A DNA stretch of 38,060 nucleotides, from assembly GCA_009925925.1 (NCBI GenBank), contig RFQA01000007.1, forward strand, positions 1 to 38,060. The letters are read 5' to 3'. Below the pieces are notes generated by a model. That model was not told where the DNA came from, did not search any database, and worked only from the letters and a program-made list of their open reading frames with translations. A program made the position numbers and the translations under genes. This DNA is from Betaproteobacteria bacterium. Lineage in GTDB: Bacteria; Pseudomonadota; Gammaproteobacteria; Burkholderiales; Burkholderiaceae_C. Positions within the stretch are counted from its first letter, which is position 1. Each line of letters starts with the position of its first letter. Shown here one piece after another: positions 3,343 through 36,234 of this stretch.

Positions 3343-4545
3343 TCAGCCTGCCTTCTTTTCCATCTCTGTGATGAAGCGGTCAAACAGGTAGCCGATGTCG
3401 TGCGGACCCGGCGATGCTTCAGGGTGCCCCTGGAAGCAGAAAGCCGGCTTGTCAGTGCGCTCCAGACCCTGCAAGGTGCCGTCAAACAAGCTGACGTGCG
3501 TGGGGCGCAGGTTGGCAGGCAGGGACTTCTCATCCACCGCAAAGCCATGGTTCTGGCTGGTGATGGACACGCGGCCGCTGTCCAGGTCTTTGACCGGATG
3601 GTTGGCACCGTGGTGGCCGAACTTCATCTTGAATGTCTTGGCGCCGCTCGCCAGCGCCATGATCTGGTGCCCCAGGCAGATGCCAAATGTGGGAGTGCCG
3701 GTCTCGATCAGTTCTTTGGCCGCAGCAATCGCGTAGTCGCAAGGCTCCGGGTCGCCGGGGCCGTTGGACAGGAAGATGCCATTCGGGTTGAGCTTGAGCA
3801 CCTCGGCAGCGGACGTTTGTGCAGGAACCACTGTCACCTTGCAGCCGCGCTCGGCCAACATGCGCAAGATGTTTTTCTTCACACCGAAGTCATAGGCCAC
3901 GACATGGAACTTGGGAGCCGTTTGCTGGCCGTAGCCTTTACCCAGGGTCCATTCGGCCTCCGTCCACGCATAGCTGCTGGCGCTGGAAACCACCTTGGCC
4001 AAATCCAAGCCCGCCATGCTGGGCGCGCCTTTGGCTGCAGCCACGGCTTTTTCAATGGCTTCCTTGGTCACCGTTTCTCCGGCAGCCAAGGCCAGGATGC
4101 AGCCGTTTTGCGCGCCTTGCGTGCGCAATTGTCGGGTCAGCTGGCGGGTATCGATGTTGGCAATCGCCACGGTGCCCTCAGCGACCAGGTACTCGGTCAG
4201 CGTCTGGGTCTTGCGGAAGTTGCTGGCCACCAAGGGCAGGTCTTTGATGATCAAACCTGCGGCGTGGACCTTGTTGGACTCCACGTCTTCTGGGTTGATA
4301 CCGTAGTTGCCGATATGGGGGTAAGTCAGGGTGACGATCTGCTGGCAATAGCTGGGATCGGTGAGGATCTCCTGATAGCCGGTCATGGAGGTGTTGAACA
4401 CGACTTCACCGACGGTAGAGCCTGCGGCTCCAATGGAATTGCCAATGTAGACCGTGCCGTCTGCGAGCGCCAGGATGGCGGGTGGGGTGGTTCCCTTGAG
4501 AGACAAAAGCACTGGTTTCTCCGAATGTTTTACGGGTACGCCCAA
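3343..4545 (-). CDS. carA: Carbamoyl-phosphate synthase small subunit
   Basis: [44 protein letters not shown]; glutaminase motif [14 protein letters not shown]-terminal [15 protein letters not shown]. Confidence 0.97.
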
Positions 4546-4662
4546 ACGCGCTCAAGACAGGCTCTTGGCGGGTGCCGCGCGGGAGGTGACTCCTGGCGGG
4601 TGCTTTTTATGAGGGAATGTACAGAGGTGCGCTTGGGACGGCTGTTTTCTGGAAAGCCTCTG

Positions 4663-4668
4663 ATTATA
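4663..4668 (-). promoter_or_regulatory. Candidate -10 (TATAAT) of the carA promoter
   Basis: Minus strand reads GGCTATAATCAGAGG about 120 bp upstream of carA; the -35 is weak. Confidence 0.4.
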
Positions 4669-4693
4669 GCCGAGGGCAAACCCGAATTCAGTT

Positions 4694-5464
4694 TCAGGCA
4701 AGCTTCAAGCTGCTGGCATGCAAGCAAATGGCCGCTGCCGCTGCCACATTGAGGGACTCTTCCCCGCCCGGCTGGCCAATGCGGGCAAACACCTTGGCTT
4801 TGGCCATGAGTGCGTCAGACACGCCCTGCCCTTCGTGCCCCATGGCCCATGCACAAGGGTGAGGCAAATCCAGCTTTTGCACCAGATCCCCCTGGTGTGA
4901 ACTCGTCACCACCAAGGGTACTTTCAATGTTTCCAGGTCTTGCAGCTCCAGCCCTTCGATCAATCGAAGCCCAAAGTGCGCGCCCATGCCGGCGCGCAAT
5001 ACTTTGGGACTCCAGAGTGCAGCCGAACCTTTGAGGGCGAGCACCTGACGGAAACCGAAGGCCACTGCACTGCGCAGGATGGAGCCCACATTGCCGGCAT
5101 CCTGCACCCGGTCGAGAATGACGGTGGCGGCCAAGGGTTCGACGCTTACTGCTTCTGGCAGGTCGACAACAAAGCCCAGTTTGGCAGGCGACTCCAACCC
5201 ACTGACTTCCCGGAACAAGGCGTCCGGAATCACTACAGTTTTGATAGCTGCCTGAGCATATTCCACGGGAGCCATCGGCATAAATGACTCGGAAACCACC
5301 AGTATCGATGGGACCACACCACGCGCCAATGCGGCACTGCACAAGTGGTCACCCTCAATCCAGAAGCGCCCCGCCTTGCGGTAAGCGGTGTTGTCGGTGC
5401 TGAGCTTGCGCAGCTCCTTGAGGAGCACGTTTTCGCGAGAACTGATGAAGATGGGTTCAGACAT
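4694..5464 (-). CDS. TrmH/SpoU-family 23S rRNA/tRNA methyltransferase
   Basis: ATVILDRVQDAGNVGSILRSAVAFGFRQVLAL and AWAMGHEGQGVSDALM...VARIGQPGGEESLNVAAAAAICLHA are SpoU motifs. Confidence 0.92.
   Translation of the reverse strand: MSEPIFISSRENVLLKELRKLSTDNTAYRKAGRFWIEGDHLCSAALARGVVPSILVVSESFMPMAPVEYAQAAIKTVVIPDALFREVSGLESPAKLGFVVDLPEAVSVEPLAATVILDRVQDAGNVGSILRSAVAFGFRQVLALKGSAALWSPKVLRAGMGAHFGLRLIEGLELQDLETLKVPLVVTSSHQGDLVQKLDLPHPCAWAMGHEGQGVSDALMAKAKVFARIGQPGGEESLNVAAAAAICLHASSLKLA
5243..5279 (+). repeat. Candidate palindromic element, copy 1 (inside the trmH-like gene)
   Basis: GATAGCTGCCTGAGCATATTCCACGGGAGCCATCGGC, preceded by ACTACAGTTTTGATAGC. About 27/37 identical by hand count to the nnr/rnr copy. 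Confidence 0.6.
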
Positions 5465-5471
5465 AAAGGCT

Positions 5472-6119
5472 TCAAAGCACGCGGGTTACCGGCGCAAATG
5501 TTTTCCGATGCTCAGGGCACGCACCGTGGGTCTGCAAAGCGGCCAGGTGCTCGGCAGTGCCATAGCCCTTGTGGGTGGCAAAGCCGTATTGGGGGTATCG
5601 AGCATCCAACTCGGTACACCAGCGGTCGCGAGTCACCTTGGCGAGGATGGAGGCAGCCGAAATGGCTGGTACCGTGGCATCGCCCTTGACAATGGCTTCA
5701 GCCAACACATCCAGTACCGGCAGGCGGTTGCCATCGACCAGCACCTTGGCGGGCTTGAGGCGCAAGCCTTCGACGGCGCGGCGCATGGCGAGCAAAGTGG
5801 CTTGCAGGATATTGATTTCGTCGATCTCTTCCACACTGGCCTGTGCGATGGAGCAGCACAAGGCTTTGGCGCGGATTTCGTCAAACAGCTTTTCTCGGCG
5901 CGCAGCGCTGAGCTTCTTGGAGTCGTTCAAGCCGGCAATCGGGCGCAGATCATCCAGAATGACAGCAGCAGCCACCACCGGCCCGGCCAAGGGGCCGCGC
6001 CCGGCCTCGTCCACTCCGGCGACCAGTCCCGGAATGTCCCAGCTGAAGGCCGCTTGCTGCACCTTGGCAGCGAAGGTGCTTTTAGCTTTGGAGGACTTTT
6101 TCAATGGCATCGGTGGCAA
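5472..6119 (-). CDS. rnhB: Ribonuclease HII
   Basis: [23 protein letters not shown]...[15 protein letters not shown]...[12 protein letters not shown]. Confidence 0.96.
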
Positions 6120-9529: not shown

Positions 9530-10039
9530 TTACTTGGCACCGGCGTTGAGAATTTTCAAAACCTTTTCGGTAATGTCATGACGAGCGCTGCTGTAGACAA
9601 CTTCTTGAAACACCAGATCATATTTCTCTCCCTCTGCAACCTGCTTGACTGCGCGATTTGCAGCGTCCAACACCTTCTGCAGCTCTTCGTTGCGGCGCCC
9701 GTTCAGATCCTCCTGGAATTCACGTTGCTTGCGCTGGAAGTCACGGTTTTGCTCTGCAAATTCTTTCTGGCGTGTTGCGCGTTGTGCCTCCGACATGGCG
9801 GGTGCATCACGTTCAAACTTTTCACTCATGGTCTTGAGCGACTGCTGCAGGTCCGTCAAGTCTTTCTGTCGCTTAGAGAATTCTTGCTCCAGCTTGGCCT
9901 GTGCTGCTTTTGCAGGTGCTGACTCTGTAGTAATGCGTTGCGTGTTGATGTAGCCAACTTTGGACTCCTGAGCGAAACTGTTACCCAAGACCAATGCCAA
10001 CGCAGTCGCCAACGCCCATTTCACTTGTGCTGTTTTCAT
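9530..10039 (-). CDS. OmpH/Skp-family periplasmic chaperone
   Basis: Signal peptide plus KVGYINTQRITTESAPAKAAQAKLEQEFSKRQKDLTDLQ..., immediately downstream of bamA. Confidence 0.93.
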   Translation of the reverse strand: MKTAQVKWALATALALVLGNSFAQESKVGYINTQRITTESAPAKAAQAKLEQEFSKRQKDLTDLQQSLKTMSEKFERDAPAMSEAQRATRQKEFAEQNRDFQRKQREFQEDLNGRRNEELQKVLDAANRAVKQVAEGEKYDLVFQEVVYSSARHDITEKVLKILNAGAK

Positions 10040-12345
10040 TAAAAGGTTGTTCCGATTTGAAATTGAACGCTTTGCATTTTATCCACGTCAAACTTTGACA
10101 GAGGCCGAGCGAGCGCAAGACGCAATGGACCCACCGGAGATATCCAACTGATGCCCACACCGAATGAAGCCCGCAAGTCGGACAACTGAATCGACTCGTC
10201 AACGCCATAGATGCCCCCAGCGTCTACAAATGCAAAGCCGCGCAATGTGCGGTCATTGCCTCCACCCGGTAGCGGAGACAGCAACTCTGCATTAAAAACC
10301 ACTTTCTTAGCGCCGCCTGTGGCCGTAAGCGACGAGGCGCGTTGTGCCGCAGTGGTCAAACTACCCTGCTCAAATCCGCGGACTGAGCCTAAGCCACCCA
10401 AGTAGTAGTTCTTAAACACCGGATATGAACCAGAACCGGTGGCGGCCCCCATGGACAACTCCGTATTGAATGCAGCGGTGACCCTTCTGGTAACGGGAAT
10501 GAATTGCTGAAACTGGGCTGTGCCGCGCACATATCGCATATCCCCCCCGACACTCCACTCGGCATTCGTCCGCATAACGCGACCTGAGCTTGGCACCAAC
10601 GCGCTATCACGCGTATCTCTGGACCAGCCTACAGTCAGAGGGACAGCCGTTGCGCTGTAGCCGAACTCGTTGGCGTAGTCCTGATATACAGTGGGCAAAT
10701 TGGTACCAGGAATGATCCGGGTCTTGTCCGCGCCAAGGCCGAAGTAAACGGTGTCCGAGTCAGAAAACGGAACTCCAAAACGTAAGCCCACACCGGTTGT
10801 CTCAATCGCGTACGTATTTACATCATCATAGGGACGGGTGGTTCGTTGATACAAATCAAAGGTGCGCGACACTCCATCATCTGTAAAGTAAGGATTGGTA
10901 GTGCTCAACACCATGGTACGGTTGGCCTTGCTGGTGTTTACTTCAATTCCCAAGGAGCTTCCCGAGCCAAACGCATTCTCTTGCTTGAAACCGAACGAAA
11001 GTCCCAACCCGTCCGCGCTGGAAATACCTGCCCCCAAGCTAATGCTGCCCGTGGGCTTCTCTGCGACCGTGACCGTCAAGTCAACCTGATCGGGAGATCC
11101 CGCCACTTCCTGAGTATCAATCCCAACGTTAGTGAAGTAACCCAATCTGTCCACACGATTGCGCGATTGCCGGATTTTTTCTCCGTCGTACCAAGCCGCT
11201 TCCAGTTGCCGGAACTCGCGGCGGATCACTTCATCACGGGTGCGATCGTTACCGGCAACATTAATCCGACGGACATAGACCCGGCGAGATGGCTCGCCGA
11301 CTAAGGTAATTTCGACGCGATTCGTGGCGCGGTCAATGTCTGTTCCGGCTTCGACACGCGCAAAGGCATAGCCGAAGTTGGCGAAGTAATCCGTAAACGC
11401 CTTGGTCGTCTGAGCCACATCCGTAGCGTTATAGGGCTCACCCGCTTTGATGGTCACCAGTGACTGGAACTCTTTCTCCTTCCCCAGGAAATTACCGGCC
11501 AACTTAATCTTCGAAACTGCGAATTGCTCACCCTCGGTGATGTTGACCGTGATTGCAATATCTTTTTTGTCCGGTGAGATCGCCACTTGGGTCGAATCCA
11601 CCTTGAATTCCAGAAATCCGCGCGCAAGGTAATAGGAGCGCAGGGTTTCGATATCAGCATTGAGCTTGGTGCGCGCATAGCGGTTGGATTTGGTGTACCA
11701 ACTCAACCAGTTTCCCGTATCAGAGTCAAAGAGGCCGCGAAGTGTGCTTGCGGGGAAGCTCTTGTTCCCGACAATATTGATTTCGCTGATTTTTGCGGTG
11801 TCACCTTCGGTTACAGCAAAACTGACATTCACACGATTGCGCTCAATTGGTGTCACCGTGGTAACGATATCCACAGCGTACATGCTTTTGCTGATGTACT
11901 GCTTTTTGAGTTCTTGCTCCGCCCTATCAACCAGTGCTTTGTCGAACGGTCGACCTTCGGACAAACCAATGTCGCGCAAAGCACGCTTCAGGACATCTTT
12001 GTCAAACTCACGGTTACCAGAAAAATCGACATCCGCGACATTGGGGCGCTCCTCCACAATAACGACCACAACACCGTCTCTACTCTCGATCCGCACATCC
12101 TTGAAAAGCCCGAGCGCAAACAAGGAGCGGATAGAGGCAGCCGCTTTCTCGTCGGTGTAGGTATCCCCCACGCGGACGGGGATGGAGGCAAACACTGTCC
12201 CGGCTTCCACACGCTGAAGGCCTTCCACCCGGATGTCACGAACCGCAAACGGCTCGAGCGCCCAAGCAGATTGCAGCAAGACAGCGAGCAAGCCGCTGCA
12301 TGCAGCAAAACGGACGCTGCGACGACGATTTTTCATAGTACTCAA
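10039..12345 (-). CDS. bamA: Outer membrane protein assembly factor BamA
   Basis: POTRA repeats from FAVRDIRVEGLQRVEAGTVFASIPVRVGD; C-terminal barrel ends GPLRLALARPLSKFDVDKMQSVQFQIGTTF. Confidence 0.97.
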   Translation of the reverse strand: MSTMKNRRRSVRFAACSGLLAVLLQSAWALEPFAVRDIRVEGLQRVEAGTVFASIPVRVGDTYTDEKAAASIRSLFALGLFKDVRIESRDGVVVVIVEERPNVADVDFSGNREFDKDVLKRALRDIGLSEGRPFDKALVDRAEQELKKQYISKSMYAVDIVTTVTPIERNRVNVSFAVTEGDTAKISEINIVGNKSFPASTLRGLFDSDTGNWLSWYTKSNRYARTKLNADIETLRSYYLARGFLEFKVDSTQVAISPDKKDIAITVNITEGEQFAVSKIKLAGNFLGKEKEFQSLVTIKAGEPYNATDVAQTTKAFTDYFANFGYAFARVEAGTDIDRATNRVEITLVGEPSRRVYVRRINVAGNDRTRDEVIRREFRQLEAAWYDGEKIRQSRNRVDRLGYFTNVGIDTQEVAGSPDQVDLTVTVAEKPTGSISLGAGISSADGLGLSFGFKQENAFGSGSSLGIEVNTSKANRTMVLSTTNPYFTDDGVSRTFDLYQRTTRPYDDVNTYAIETTGVGLRFGVPFSDSDTVYFGLGADKTRIIPGTNLPTVYQDYANEFGYSATAVPLTVGWSRDTRDSALVPSSGRVMRTNAEWSVGGDMRYVRGTAQFQQFIPVTRRVTAAFNTELSMGAATGSGSYPVFKNYYLGGLGSVRGFEQGSLTTAAQRASSLTATGGAKKVVFNAELLSPLPGGGNDRTLRGFAFVDAGGIYGVDESIQLSDLRASFGVGISWISPVGPLRLALARPLSKFDVDKMQSVQFQIGTTF

Positions 12346-12382: not shown

Positions 12383-13602
12383 TTAACCAAAGATATGCAA
12401 AACATCGTTATAGAAGGCGACTGACATCATCACCAGCAACAACGCAACACCAGCACGCTGAAGCACTTCCCACCATTTTTCGGGTACCGGACGACCGGTG
12501 AGCCCCTCCCAAAGATAATACATCAGGTGCCCTCCATCCAAGACCGGCAAGGGAAGCAGGTTCAGCACACCGAGACTGATACTGATGAGCGCCAAAAAAC
12601 TCAGAAACTGCAGGGGGCCCAAGGCGGCAGATTTGCCGGCATAGTCAGCAATTGCCAATGGCCCGTTCAGATTTCGAAGCGATACCTGCCCTGTGATCAT
12701 TTGGCCCATGGCTAGCAAAGACATATATGAAATGTCCCACGTTTTCTCAACGGCCCGCGCAAGGCCTTCGGTAAAGCCATATTGAACAGACATAGTATCA
12801 GGGGCGGCACCAATGAAGGCACCAACACGACCGACAACCGCCTCCCCCTGTTTTTCGGCTTTGGGAGTCACAACGATGGTCACAGCTCGGCTTGCCCGCA
12901 AGATTTGCCAAGTCATCGGTATTTCTGGAGAGTTACGTATCAGCGCTCTAAGCTGATTGGCATCGCGTATGGGTGTTCCATTCACTGCTGATACCAAGTC
13001 ACCGGGCATCAGCCCCGCCTCAGTGGCACGTTGCGACCAGGCTCATTGAATTTCACATACAAAACTTTGCGATCCAAGCTAGCCGTTGTGAGCCACCATC
13101 GGAATTCTTCAAAGGTTTGGATCGGGATCAGCGCGTCTTGCGTAACACCCACCTCCAAAACCCGCTCGCCGCCTACCCAACCTCCCTTCTCTGCCAACGA
13201 GGACGCGACGGGTGTCGGGAGAACTGGAGTGGCTAATGTGACTGACTGCCAATTCACAAGGGAGAAAAGTCCTACCGCCAACAACAAATTAGCGAGGGGG
13301 CCGGCAGCCACGATGAAAGATCGACGGCGCAAAGATTGCCTGTCAAAAGCCTGAGATGCTTCCGACTCTGCGATTGGCCCCTCACGTCCATCGAGCATCT
13401 TGACGTAGCCACCAAGAGGAACTGCACTCAGGACGAAGTCTGTTCCCGTCCGTGGAGATGTCCATCCCCACAGCCTCGGGCCAAATCCGATGGAAAATTT
13501 GAGCACCTTGACCCCACAAAGGCGGGCTGCATAGAAATGCCCCCATTCGTGCACGGCCACCAGCAAACCAATGGCAACGAGGAAAGCCAGGACTGTTTGC
13601 AT
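12383..13602 (-). pseudogene. rseP: RseP-type site-2 protease, split into two ORFs (13009..13602 and 12383..13009) with an apparent internal deletion
   Basis: N-half carries the zinc site HEWGH and ends RNVPLRRG*. C-half starts MPGDLVSAVNGTPIRD and carries LLPLPVLDGGHLMYY. The ORFs meet at TGATG; about 40 residues of PDZ1 are missing relative to E. coli RseP. Confidence 0.85.
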
Positions 13603-13620: not shown

Positions 13621-14808
13621 TTACTGCAGAAGTGATGTGCAAATGTTCTCAGCCAGACTGCGGGCTTCTGTATCCAGGGCCATCAAAGACGATAAATCGT
13701 CAGGGGACACGAAATTCAGCTGGTTCAAGGTGCGAGTATTCACGGTATGGATTTGATCGAAACGGATACGACGATCCAAAAATGCAGCAACAGCAATTTC
13801 ATTTGCTGCATTCAACACAACGGTAGATCCTGCTTGCCCCATTAAAGTTTCCCAAGCGAGTTTTAACCCGGGGAATCGTGCCTGGTGCGCCTCCGAATGA
13901 ATGGATTCAAAGGTCAGCGACGCCATGGTGGAAAAATCCAATGCAGCTGACCCCGATGAAACCCGTTGCGGCCATGCCAAGCCATGCGCAATAGGGCCGC
14001 GCATGTCGGGGGTACCCAATTGGGCAACCACTGAGTTATCGACGTACTGCACCATAGAGTGCACCACGCTTTGAGGGTGAATGATGACGTCAATCTGCCG
14101 GGGAAGCACATCGAATAGAAACTTAGCCTCGATGACCTCCAACGCTTTGTTCATCATGGTCGCGGAGTCCACTGAAATTTTGCGCCCCATGACCCAATTG
14201 GGGTGAGCGCAGGCTTGTTCAGGTGTCGCCTCACGGATTTGAGATTGGTTCCATGTTCGGAAAGGACCTCCCGACGCCGTCAAGATCAGTTTGTCAATGA
14301 CGGATGGCCAGTGGTCCCGACTATCCGGAAGCGACTGGAAAATGGCTGAGTGCTCGCTATCAATGGGCAACAAAACCGCTCTGCCTTGCTTTACGGCCGA
14401 CATAAACACTTCACCGCCAACTACTAGTGCTTCTTTATTTGCCAAAAGCAATCTTTTCCCGGCGATTGCCGCCGCTATACACGACGACAAGCCTGCGGCC
14501 CCAACAATAGCCGCCATCACCACATCTACATCGGCATGTGCTGCCACCGCATCCAGTGCAGTTGGTCCCGAGAGCACCTCCGTCTTTGCACCGGATCGTT
14601 TGAGGCGTGCCTGAAGCTCCATCGCATGTTTGGGGTTCACCATGACCGCAAATTGCGGCCGGAACTCCATACATTGGGCATAAATCACCTCTACGTTGGT
14701 CGAAGCAGTGAGAGCGAAGACAGAAAAACTTTCGGGATGCCGTCTCAATACATCCAGGGTATTGACCCCGATGGACCCTGTCGATCCCAGCACTGTGATT
14801 TTTTTCAT
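13621..14808 (-). CDS. dxr: 1-deoxy-D-xylulose 5-phosphate reductoisomerase
   Basis: MKKITVLGSTGSIGVNTLDVLRRHPESF...ANKEALVVGGEVF...LPIDSEHSAIFQSL. Confidence 0.97.
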   Translation of the reverse strand: MKKITVLGSTGSIGVNTLDVLRRHPESFSVFALTASTNVEVIYAQCMEFRPQFAVMVNPKHAMELQARLKRSGAKTEVLSGPTALDAVAAHADVDVVMAAIVGAAGLSSCIAAAIAGKRLLLANKEALVVGGEVFMSAVKQGRAVLLPIDSEHSAIFQSLPDSRDHWPSVIDKLILTASGGPFRTWNQSQIREATPEQACAHPNWVMGRKISVDSATMMNKALEVIEAKFLFDVLPRQIDVIIHPQSVVHSMVQYVDNSVVAQLGTPDMRGPIAHGLAWPQRVSSGSAALDFSTMASLTFESIHSEAHQARFPGLKLAWETLMGQAGSTVVLNAANEIAVAAFLDRRIRFDQIHTVNTRTLNQLNFVSPDDLSSLMALDTEARSLAENICTSLLQ

Positions 14809-33532: not shown

Positions 33533-33545
33533 GTGCCATGGTCAA

Positions 33546-33575
33546 TTGACAACTAGACCGACCGGTCTATAGAAT
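33546..33575 (+). promoter_or_regulatory. TetR-gene promoter (TTGACA / TAGAAT) with palindromic operator TAGACC-GACC-GGTCTA (33554-33569) in the spacer
   Basis: gtcaaTTGACAacTAGACCGACCGGTCTATAGAATttcgtATG. Confidence 0.75.
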
Positions 33576-33580
33576 TTCGT

Positions 33581-34201
33581 ATGACCACTCACAACCCACC
33601 ACCCCCCATTGCCGACAACATCCCCGCCCCCACAAGGGATCGGCTGATTGCTGCGATGCTGAATGCCCTGCGACGCACCGGCTTTCACGGTGTGGGCTTG
33701 AGTGAGCTTTTGTCGGAAGCCGGTGCCCCCAAGGGGGTCATGTACCACCACTTCCCCGGTGGCAAGTCAGAATTGGCCATTGCAGCGATCGACCTCGTGG
33801 TCGGCCAGATCACCGTAGGACTGGCAAAGCTCATGCAACGACATGCGGACCCCGCAGATGCTTTGCAGGCATGGATGGCATCCGCCCAGAAACTGCTGGC
33901 CGGCAGCGGCTACCAGCAAGGTTGTCCGCTGGCCTCTATGGCATCTGAATCGACACCGGAAGACATCGCCATTCGGGAGGCCTTGGCAAAGGGATTCGCC
34001 CATATTCGCGAGCAGCTAGGCTTGGCTTTGGAAAGCGCCGGAGTCGCCCCTGCCCGGAGCGCCAACCTTGCGGCATTGATGGTGTCTGCGTACGAAGGCG
34101 CCCTCATCCAGGCCCGCGTGGCCGGGCAGGTAGACGCCATGCAAAACACCACCGACGCACTGGTGGACTTGATTCGTCTGAGCATCGCATCCAAACCATG
34201 A
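33581..34201 (+). CDS. TetR/AcrR-family transcriptional regulator
   Basis: RDRLIAAMLNALRRTGFHGVGLSELLSEAGAPKGVMYHHFPGGKSELAIAAI is a TetR HTH; the C-terminal QQGCPLASMASE resembles LmrA/YxaF-type regulators. Confidence 0.93.
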   Translation: MTTHNPPPPIADNIPAPTRDRLIAAMLNALRRTGFHGVGLSELLSEAGAPKGVMYHHFPGGKSELAIAAIDLVVGQITVGLAKLMQRHADPADALQAWMASAQKLLAGSGYQQGCPLASMASESTPEDIAIREALAKGFAHIREQLGLALESAGVAPARSANLAALMVSAYEGALIQARVAGQVDAMQNTTDALVDLIRLSIASKP

Positions 34202-35097
34202 TTTCCCAGCCCGCCATGAAAGCCCACCAGCCCATGAACACACCGGAGTCACTGACACTCACAACCCGTGACGGATATGCATTGCAAGCCCTGCGTTACA
34301 CCGCCACAGGCCCTCTGCGCGGGCATCTGGTGGTCGCAGGTGCCACTGGCGTTCCGCAGCTGTTTTACAAGAACTTCGCACTCTTCGCTGCGCAGCAGGG
34401 CTACACCACTCTGACGGTGGACTACCGCGGCATAGGCCTCTCCAAACCGGCCGATTTACGAGGCTTTCAGATGGACTATCTGGATTGGGCTTTTCACGAT
34501 GTTGCAGCTGCGGTAGACGCTATGGCGGATGACACCGTTCCTCTTTTCATGGTGGGGCACTCGTTCGGTGGCCATGCATTCGGCCTGCTCCCCAACCACG
34601 ACAGGGTCGCACGGTTTTATACCTTTGCCACCGGGGCGGGCTGGCACGGCTGGATGCCACGTGCCGAGCAATTCAAGGTCCTGCTGATGTGGCACGTCAT
34701 CGGCCCGCTGCTCACCCGCTGGAAGGGCTATCTGGCCTGGAGCAAGCTCCAGATGGGCGAGGACTTGCCACTAGGCGTTTACCGGGATTGGAAGCGCTGG
34801 TGCAAGTTTCCGCGCTACTTCTTTGATGACCCCGGCATGCCGCATGTGGCCGGTTTGTTCGGGAGGGTGCGCACCCCCATCATCGCGGCCAATGCGACCG
34901 ATGACCTTTGGGCGCCACCCGCGTCACGCGATGCCTTTATGGCCGCCTACAGCAACACCACCGTGAGCAAGGTGGACATCCACCCCGGTCAACAAGGCAT
35001 AGGGCCCATCGGCCACATGGGCTACTTCCGCAGACAGGCACAACCATTGTGGAACGACGTGCTGACCTGGTTCGGCGAGCATCAGACTGCCCGCTGA
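34198..35097 (+). CDS. Alpha/beta hydrolase (serine aminopeptidase-like)
   Basis: TTLTVDYRGIGLSKPADLRGFQMDYLDWAFHDVAAAVDAM...LFMVGHSFGGHAFGLL. ATGA overlap with the TetR stop, though a downstream Met is possible. Confidence 0.86.
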   Translation: MISQPAMKAHQPMNTPESLTLTTRDGYALQALRYTATGPLRGHLVVAGATGVPQLFYKNFALFAAQQGYTTLTVDYRGIGLSKPADLRGFQMDYLDWAFHDVAAAVDAMADDTVPLFMVGHSFGGHAFGLLPNHDRVARFYTFATGAGWHGWMPRAEQFKVLLMWHVIGPLLTRWKGYLAWSKLQMGEDLPLGVYRDWKRWCKFPRYFFDDPGMPHVAGLFGRVRTPIIAANATDDLWAPPASRDAFMAAYSNTTVSKVDIHPGQQGIGPIGHMGYFRRQAQPLWNDVLTWFGEHQTAR

Positions 35098-35822: not shown

Positions 35823-35904
35823 GCAATGAAGATGAAAACCGGCAAATGCCTGCCGAATGGTAACAAGTGGCCCGCCGGCGCTGTGGCTGGTTTAGAATCG
35901 GCTC

Positions 35905-36148
35905 CGTTCAGGAGAGAGCCCTTCACGGGGCCGCCGAAGGCGCAGGACGGCTGATTGCAGCGGTCTGAACGCTCAGGCAAAAGGACTGATCCCTGCCGGC
36001 AAGGCTTGCTCTGCCGGCAACACCCCACTGGAGAGAGTTTGCACCGCACAGCGGCCTGCAAACCACCGAAGGAGCAACCCGCAGTCTGCGCACCCCACCC
36101 CGTGCACGCAGGCCCGGCGAATCTCTCAGGTAAAGCGGACAGCGGGGG
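35905..36148 (+). promoter_or_regulatory. Tandem glycine riboswitch (two aptamers) upstream of gcvT
   Basis: Aptamer 1 ggagagagccc...ccgaaggcgcaggacggc...gctcaggcaaaaggact. Aptamer 2 ggagagagtttgc...ccgaaggagcaacccgc...ctctcaggtaaagcggacagcggggg. Upstream of the gcv operon. Confidence 0.95.
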
Positions 36149-36234
36149 CAGCACCGGATGGGCGCAGACTTGCGTGCATCCGGGTTTGGATTGCCCCTCC
36201 GGCGTATCGCGCCGGGAATGTTTGGATCGCCGCC

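Follow-up and report, generated by a model that had tools for sequence, protein, structure and literature searches.

The rseP gene in the window (the whole stretch of 38,060 nucleotides analysed here) is located on the minus strand between dxr and bamA, as in known RseP loci, and is present there in two pieces. An ORF of 197 aa with the motif HEWGH is followed by one of 208 aa with LPLPVLDGGH, and both share base 13009, where stop and start overlap as TGATG (Table 1). The 197-aa ORF ends in GRNVPLRRG and a stop, NVPLRRG and the stop being out-of-frame or junction-derived, and the 208-aa ORF starts with MPGDLVSAVNG; upstream of its ATG the latter frame reads RATEAGLMPGD and is open over 219 codons from stop to stop. 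The first-pass annotation of this DNA had described the split rseP with its TGATG at 13009, its ORF ends and its motifs and had considered dxr and bamA intact, and the ORFs read in the window bore this out. In the profile of TIGR00054 (RIP metalloprotease RseP), positions 4-155 were matched by the N-half and 222-419 by the C-half, and the N-half also matched positions 1-101 of PF02163. Together, the two halves match TM1-TM2 and TM3-TM4 of RseP (TIGR00054/PF02163; E. coli RseP, PDB 7w6x), with the HExxH zinc motif of TM1 (hydrophobic stretch at residues 3-21) and the LDG motif of TM3 both present. Unlike RseP, the gene in the window is without 46 codons at the PDZ-N/PDZ-C junction and its frame is broken. 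The periplasmic PDZ tandem that should separate TM2 from TM3 is incomplete, a PDZ_6 match stayed under its cut-off, and instead of one ORF of ~450 aa there are 197 and 208 aa with a frame change, compared to an intact rseP of 452 aa in G007, the closest relative compared (same genus, one contig).

Table 1. Features of the split rseP locus in the window, and blunt deletions in the window genome relative to G007.
Feature	Position	Strand	Size	Remarks
5' part of rseP	13009..13602	-		TM1 with HEWGH zinc site, TM2, most of PDZ-N
3' part of rseP, from first in-frame ATG past the junction	12383..13009	-		rest of PDZ-C, TM3 with LDGGH, TM4
Open frame of the 3' part	upstream as far as 13042	-
Deletion junction	13029..13030	-	139 bp	missing relative to G007; flanks overlap by 2 bp (CG)
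TGATG stop-start overlap	13007..13011	-		inherited; the intact gene has CTG ATG in frame (Leu-Met)
dxr, intact upstream neighbour	13621..14808	-		open in the window
bamA, intact downstream neighbour	10039..12345	-		open in the window
Blunt deletion	window 13030		139 bp	rseP
Blunt deletion	C408:1875 (L133:1875)		138 bp
Blunt deletion	C429:9353 (L154:9353)		165 bp	pssA, conserved C-terminus
Blunt deletion	C430:3748 (L155:3748)		88 bp	HhH-GPD DNA-3-methyladenine glycosylase (alkA-like), out of frame, inside domain
Blunt deletion	C443:520 (L228:520)		66 bp
Blunt deletion	C443:8176 (L228:8176)		125 bp
Blunt deletion	C460:7233 (L244:7233)		229 bp	PilZ gene, out of frame

Over positions 49-33533, the window and G007 are collinear (88-89% identity); the sole large interruption inside this stretch is the rseP junction, where G007 is longer by 139 bp. 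As 139 equals 3 x 46 + 1, that is 46 codons and one base, the frame changes at this point. The missing residues correspond to ~192-237 of the G007 protein (46 residues) and, by alignment to E. coli RseP (7w6x) with PDZ domain limits that are partly assumed, run from the last part of PDZ-N through the linker into the first part of PDZ-C. Such a split pattern is far beyond chance. The out-of-frame deletion, as opposed to a single-base indel, had been recognized before, and the number of ~40 missing residues given then relative to E. coli RseP was close. With a GC of 0.57 in G007, the missing segment resembles the gene and the window, and unusual base composition was rejected as a cause of dropout. 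Bordering the collinear stretch, ~690 bp of the window (33534-34227) are missing from both G007 and OS-4; they contain a 206-aa ORF (33581-34201) resembling a TetR-type regulator, as read from its sequence, which adjoins an alpha/beta-hydrolase-like gene (34198-35097). Two tandem glycine riboswitch aptamers (Rfam RF00504) are found on the plus strand at 35899-36152. In G007 itself, both bamA and dxr are broken into two reading frames, probably due to small indel errors of its assembly, and G007 is therefore an imperfect reference.

The search for a second rseP elsewhere, proposed in the first-pass annotation, yielded neither another copy nor a copy of the missing piece in the same genome. An M50 protein on C411 (229-aa frame) turned out to be a separate, shorter relative, and a match on C77 was weak and covered the PDZ part only. 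No second copy of the junction was detected in a DNA-level search, and a plasmid collection searched for rseP gave distant rseP fragments only.

Related loci were subjected to an automatic test for one frame of >330 aa containing the HExGH and LDG motifs, which considers frame and motifs only. The test was passed by 108 related loci, a number that does not stand for independent genomes, as some loci overlap or represent the same genome twice. The 12 loci that failed were six stretches of the window genome, three stretches of G007 or OS-4 that fall short of the full gene, and the loci L039, L077 and L079. In L077, rseP is cut by the contig end, and in L079 (Variovorax sp. E3; 4234-5630) and L039 (Rhodoferax draft bin; 255-884) its frame is broken at other places, probably by small indels in draft sequence. 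The gene is intact in G007, and a split of the type seen in the window was found in none of the relatives examined; as rseP is open in a single frame at 108 related loci, the split is not a conserved trait.

Both halves of rseP look like a constrained gene as judged from substitution patterns, with dN/dS values against G007 of 0.12 for the N-half and 0.14 for the C-half. The dN to the outgroups OS-4 and L036 was the same for the window and for G007 within a few hundredths, and neither half showed a further stop or frameshift. A decaying pseudogene was rejected on these grounds, as extra stops are lacking and dN is not raised. From the lack of decay it follows that the gap is either recent or absent from the organism.

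For the TGATG overlap, it had also been considered that a two-polypeptide protease is made by termination-reinitiation, in which the N-half (TM1-TM2, HEWGH) and the C-half (TM3-TM4, LDGGH) would assemble in the membrane to a functional site-2 protease with damaged PDZ domains. TGATG together with GAGG 8 nt before the ATG and the constrained sequence of both halves would be in line with this, as would the dispensability of the PDZ domain of E. coli RseP, whose disruption makes site-1 cleavage unnecessary (Bohn 2004 and Kanehara 2003, cited in PMC10202637). E. coli RseP variants with a disrupted or removed PDZ domain (PMC10202637) resemble the window gene in the loss within the periplasmic PDZ tandem, but are single polypeptides, whereas the window has a shifted frame and two ORFs. 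At the same place, however, the intact gene of G007 reads GGG CTG ATG TCC (AGLMSGD) with CTGATG in frame as Leu-Met, showing that the hexamer predates the gap and that its TGA acts as a stop because the frame is shifted. Among the 97 GLxxGD sites listed, CTGATG occurred only in the two entries of G007 itself. GAGG belongs to the ordinary coding sequence, where it is part of a Glu-Ala codon pair that is frequent in relatives in the form EAGL. The junction features did not arise with the split; TGATG is inherited, and the stop-start overlap is a by-product of the frame change and no designed reinitiation site. In addition, the lone C-half would start inside PDZ-C and continue for ~138 residues before its first hydrophobic helix (139-157), and no signal sequence was found in it. 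In E. coli RseP, the PDZ domains are periplasmic; this N-terminal tail of 138 residues would therefore have to cross the membrane without a signal sequence, and a correct membrane insertion of the C-half alone is unlikely. As the split is found in none of the relatives examined and the low dN/dS can be explained by descent from an intact gene, we regard a functional two-polypeptide protease as highly improbable, and the proposal is not supported by the CTGATG of G007 or by the C-half with its lack of an export signal. If true, it would represent a natural split site-2 protease with damaged PDZ domains, possibly freed from site-1 control.

RseP serves the rpoE-rseA-rseB pathway, and contig C459 of the same genome carries open rpoE-, rseA- and rseB-like genes (rseA assigned by Pfam, rpoE and rseB by position and sequence). 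A real, recent 139-bp deletion could have turned rseP into a pseudogene, either throughout this strain or in a fraction of the population, which would be consistent with the clean single junction in an otherwise collinear stretch of 33 kb, the failure to find a second rseP and the lack of further decay. Without RseP, the usual route by which RseA is removed from sigma-E would be closed, and a suppressor or a dispensable sigma-E response would be needed. The intact sigma-E operon and the rseP open in one frame in the 108 related loci (by frame and motifs only) argue against such a loss, as does the fact that E. coli cannot do without the protease RseP (YaeL), which is essential there (Bohn 2004, cited in PMC10202637).

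The window genome is a draft (465 contigs, 94.6% complete, 4.3% contaminated; near Rhodoferax/Comamonadaceae). Stretches of 54 of its contigs were compared to 1.26 Mb of G007; ~320 kb could be aligned. An interruption was counted if it measured 60-250 bp and its flanks overlapped, or were separated by additional sequence, by no more than a few bases, a criterion that was set after the first examples had been seen. At seven blunt places the window genome is shorter by 66-229 bp, with 0-3 bp of flank overlap or extra sequence (Table 1), so that the assembly contains, apart from the gap in rseP, other gaps of this kind that look unselected. Besides rseP, the deletions affect pssA, the alkA-like glycosylase, the PilZ gene and a response-regulator-like gene, and further sites are at or near gene ends. 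Less clean length differences, for example in C413, C417, C421 and C425, were left out of the count. In the opposite direction, a single blunt insertion of comparable size (85 bp; C460:8602) was detected in the window genome against G007, and the resulting ratio of 7:1 (two-sided binomial p ~0.07, with one comparison genome and a post hoc criterion) is a modest asymmetry that can be taken as indicative only. Of the five deletions within coding sequence, three shift the frame, which is what the absence of selection would predict. All 8 same-genus relatives searched have PssA residues 219-276, which are missing in the window genome only; the glycosylase is whole in 6 of 8 (cut at a contig edge in G002, partial in G006) and split in the window genome; and the PilZ protein is whole in all 5 same-genus relatives carrying the gene. 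These losses, two of the three out of frame and all in conserved genes, are easier to explain as assembly faults than as independent real deletions, and a single biological event would not account for them together with the gap in rseP. Real recent deletions could have the same appearance, and the loss of rseP in the organism itself is, on the evidence given above, possible though rather unlikely.

Of the 61 contigs whose lengths are known (C400-C460 sampled), 45 have a length that differs from a multiple of 30 by at most one base, where ~6 would be expected, which suggests an unusual trimming, processing or assembly and is in favour of an assembly fault without accounting for it. This pattern was rejected as the cause of the gaps, as a period of 30 is seen neither in the positions of the junctions nor in the lengths of the deletions. 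Runs of N were not found inside the contigs read, with seven short contigs being N throughout. To our knowledge, no specific assembler fault leads to blunt losses of 60-230 bp, and a literature search on gene-fragmenting assembly errors in metagenome bins gave no result with the terms used. The near-zero overlaps at the junctions are unlike repeat-mediated deletions, and a repeat collapse was rejected for rseP, as the shared sequence at its junction is only ~2 bp. Of the "assembly/collapse error" that the first-pass annotation had placed first among its three options, the assembly part thus gains weight from the further blunt deletions, and the collapse part is not supported.

Because several more blunt deletions of 66-229 bp occur in the same assembly, some of them in conserved genes, we infer an assembly fault, and the 139-bp gap is probably a systematic assembly deletion in an ordinary single-copy rseP. 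A blunt false join, of the type found elsewhere in the assembly, would have removed the 139 bp of the PDZ-N/PDZ-C region, and the two ORFs and TGATG would be its by-products; the organism itself probably carries an intact RseP of ~450 aa. The locus would then resemble deletions in draft-genome assemblies, in that a single assembly has blunt gaps, apparently unselected, in several of its conserved genes. When a draft genome shows an "essential" gene as broken, the frequency of such gaps across its assembly should accordingly be considered before gene loss or a new protein architecture is claimed. If the deletion is real, a lineage in which the rpoE-rseA-rseB operon is intact would include a member with a defective rseP.
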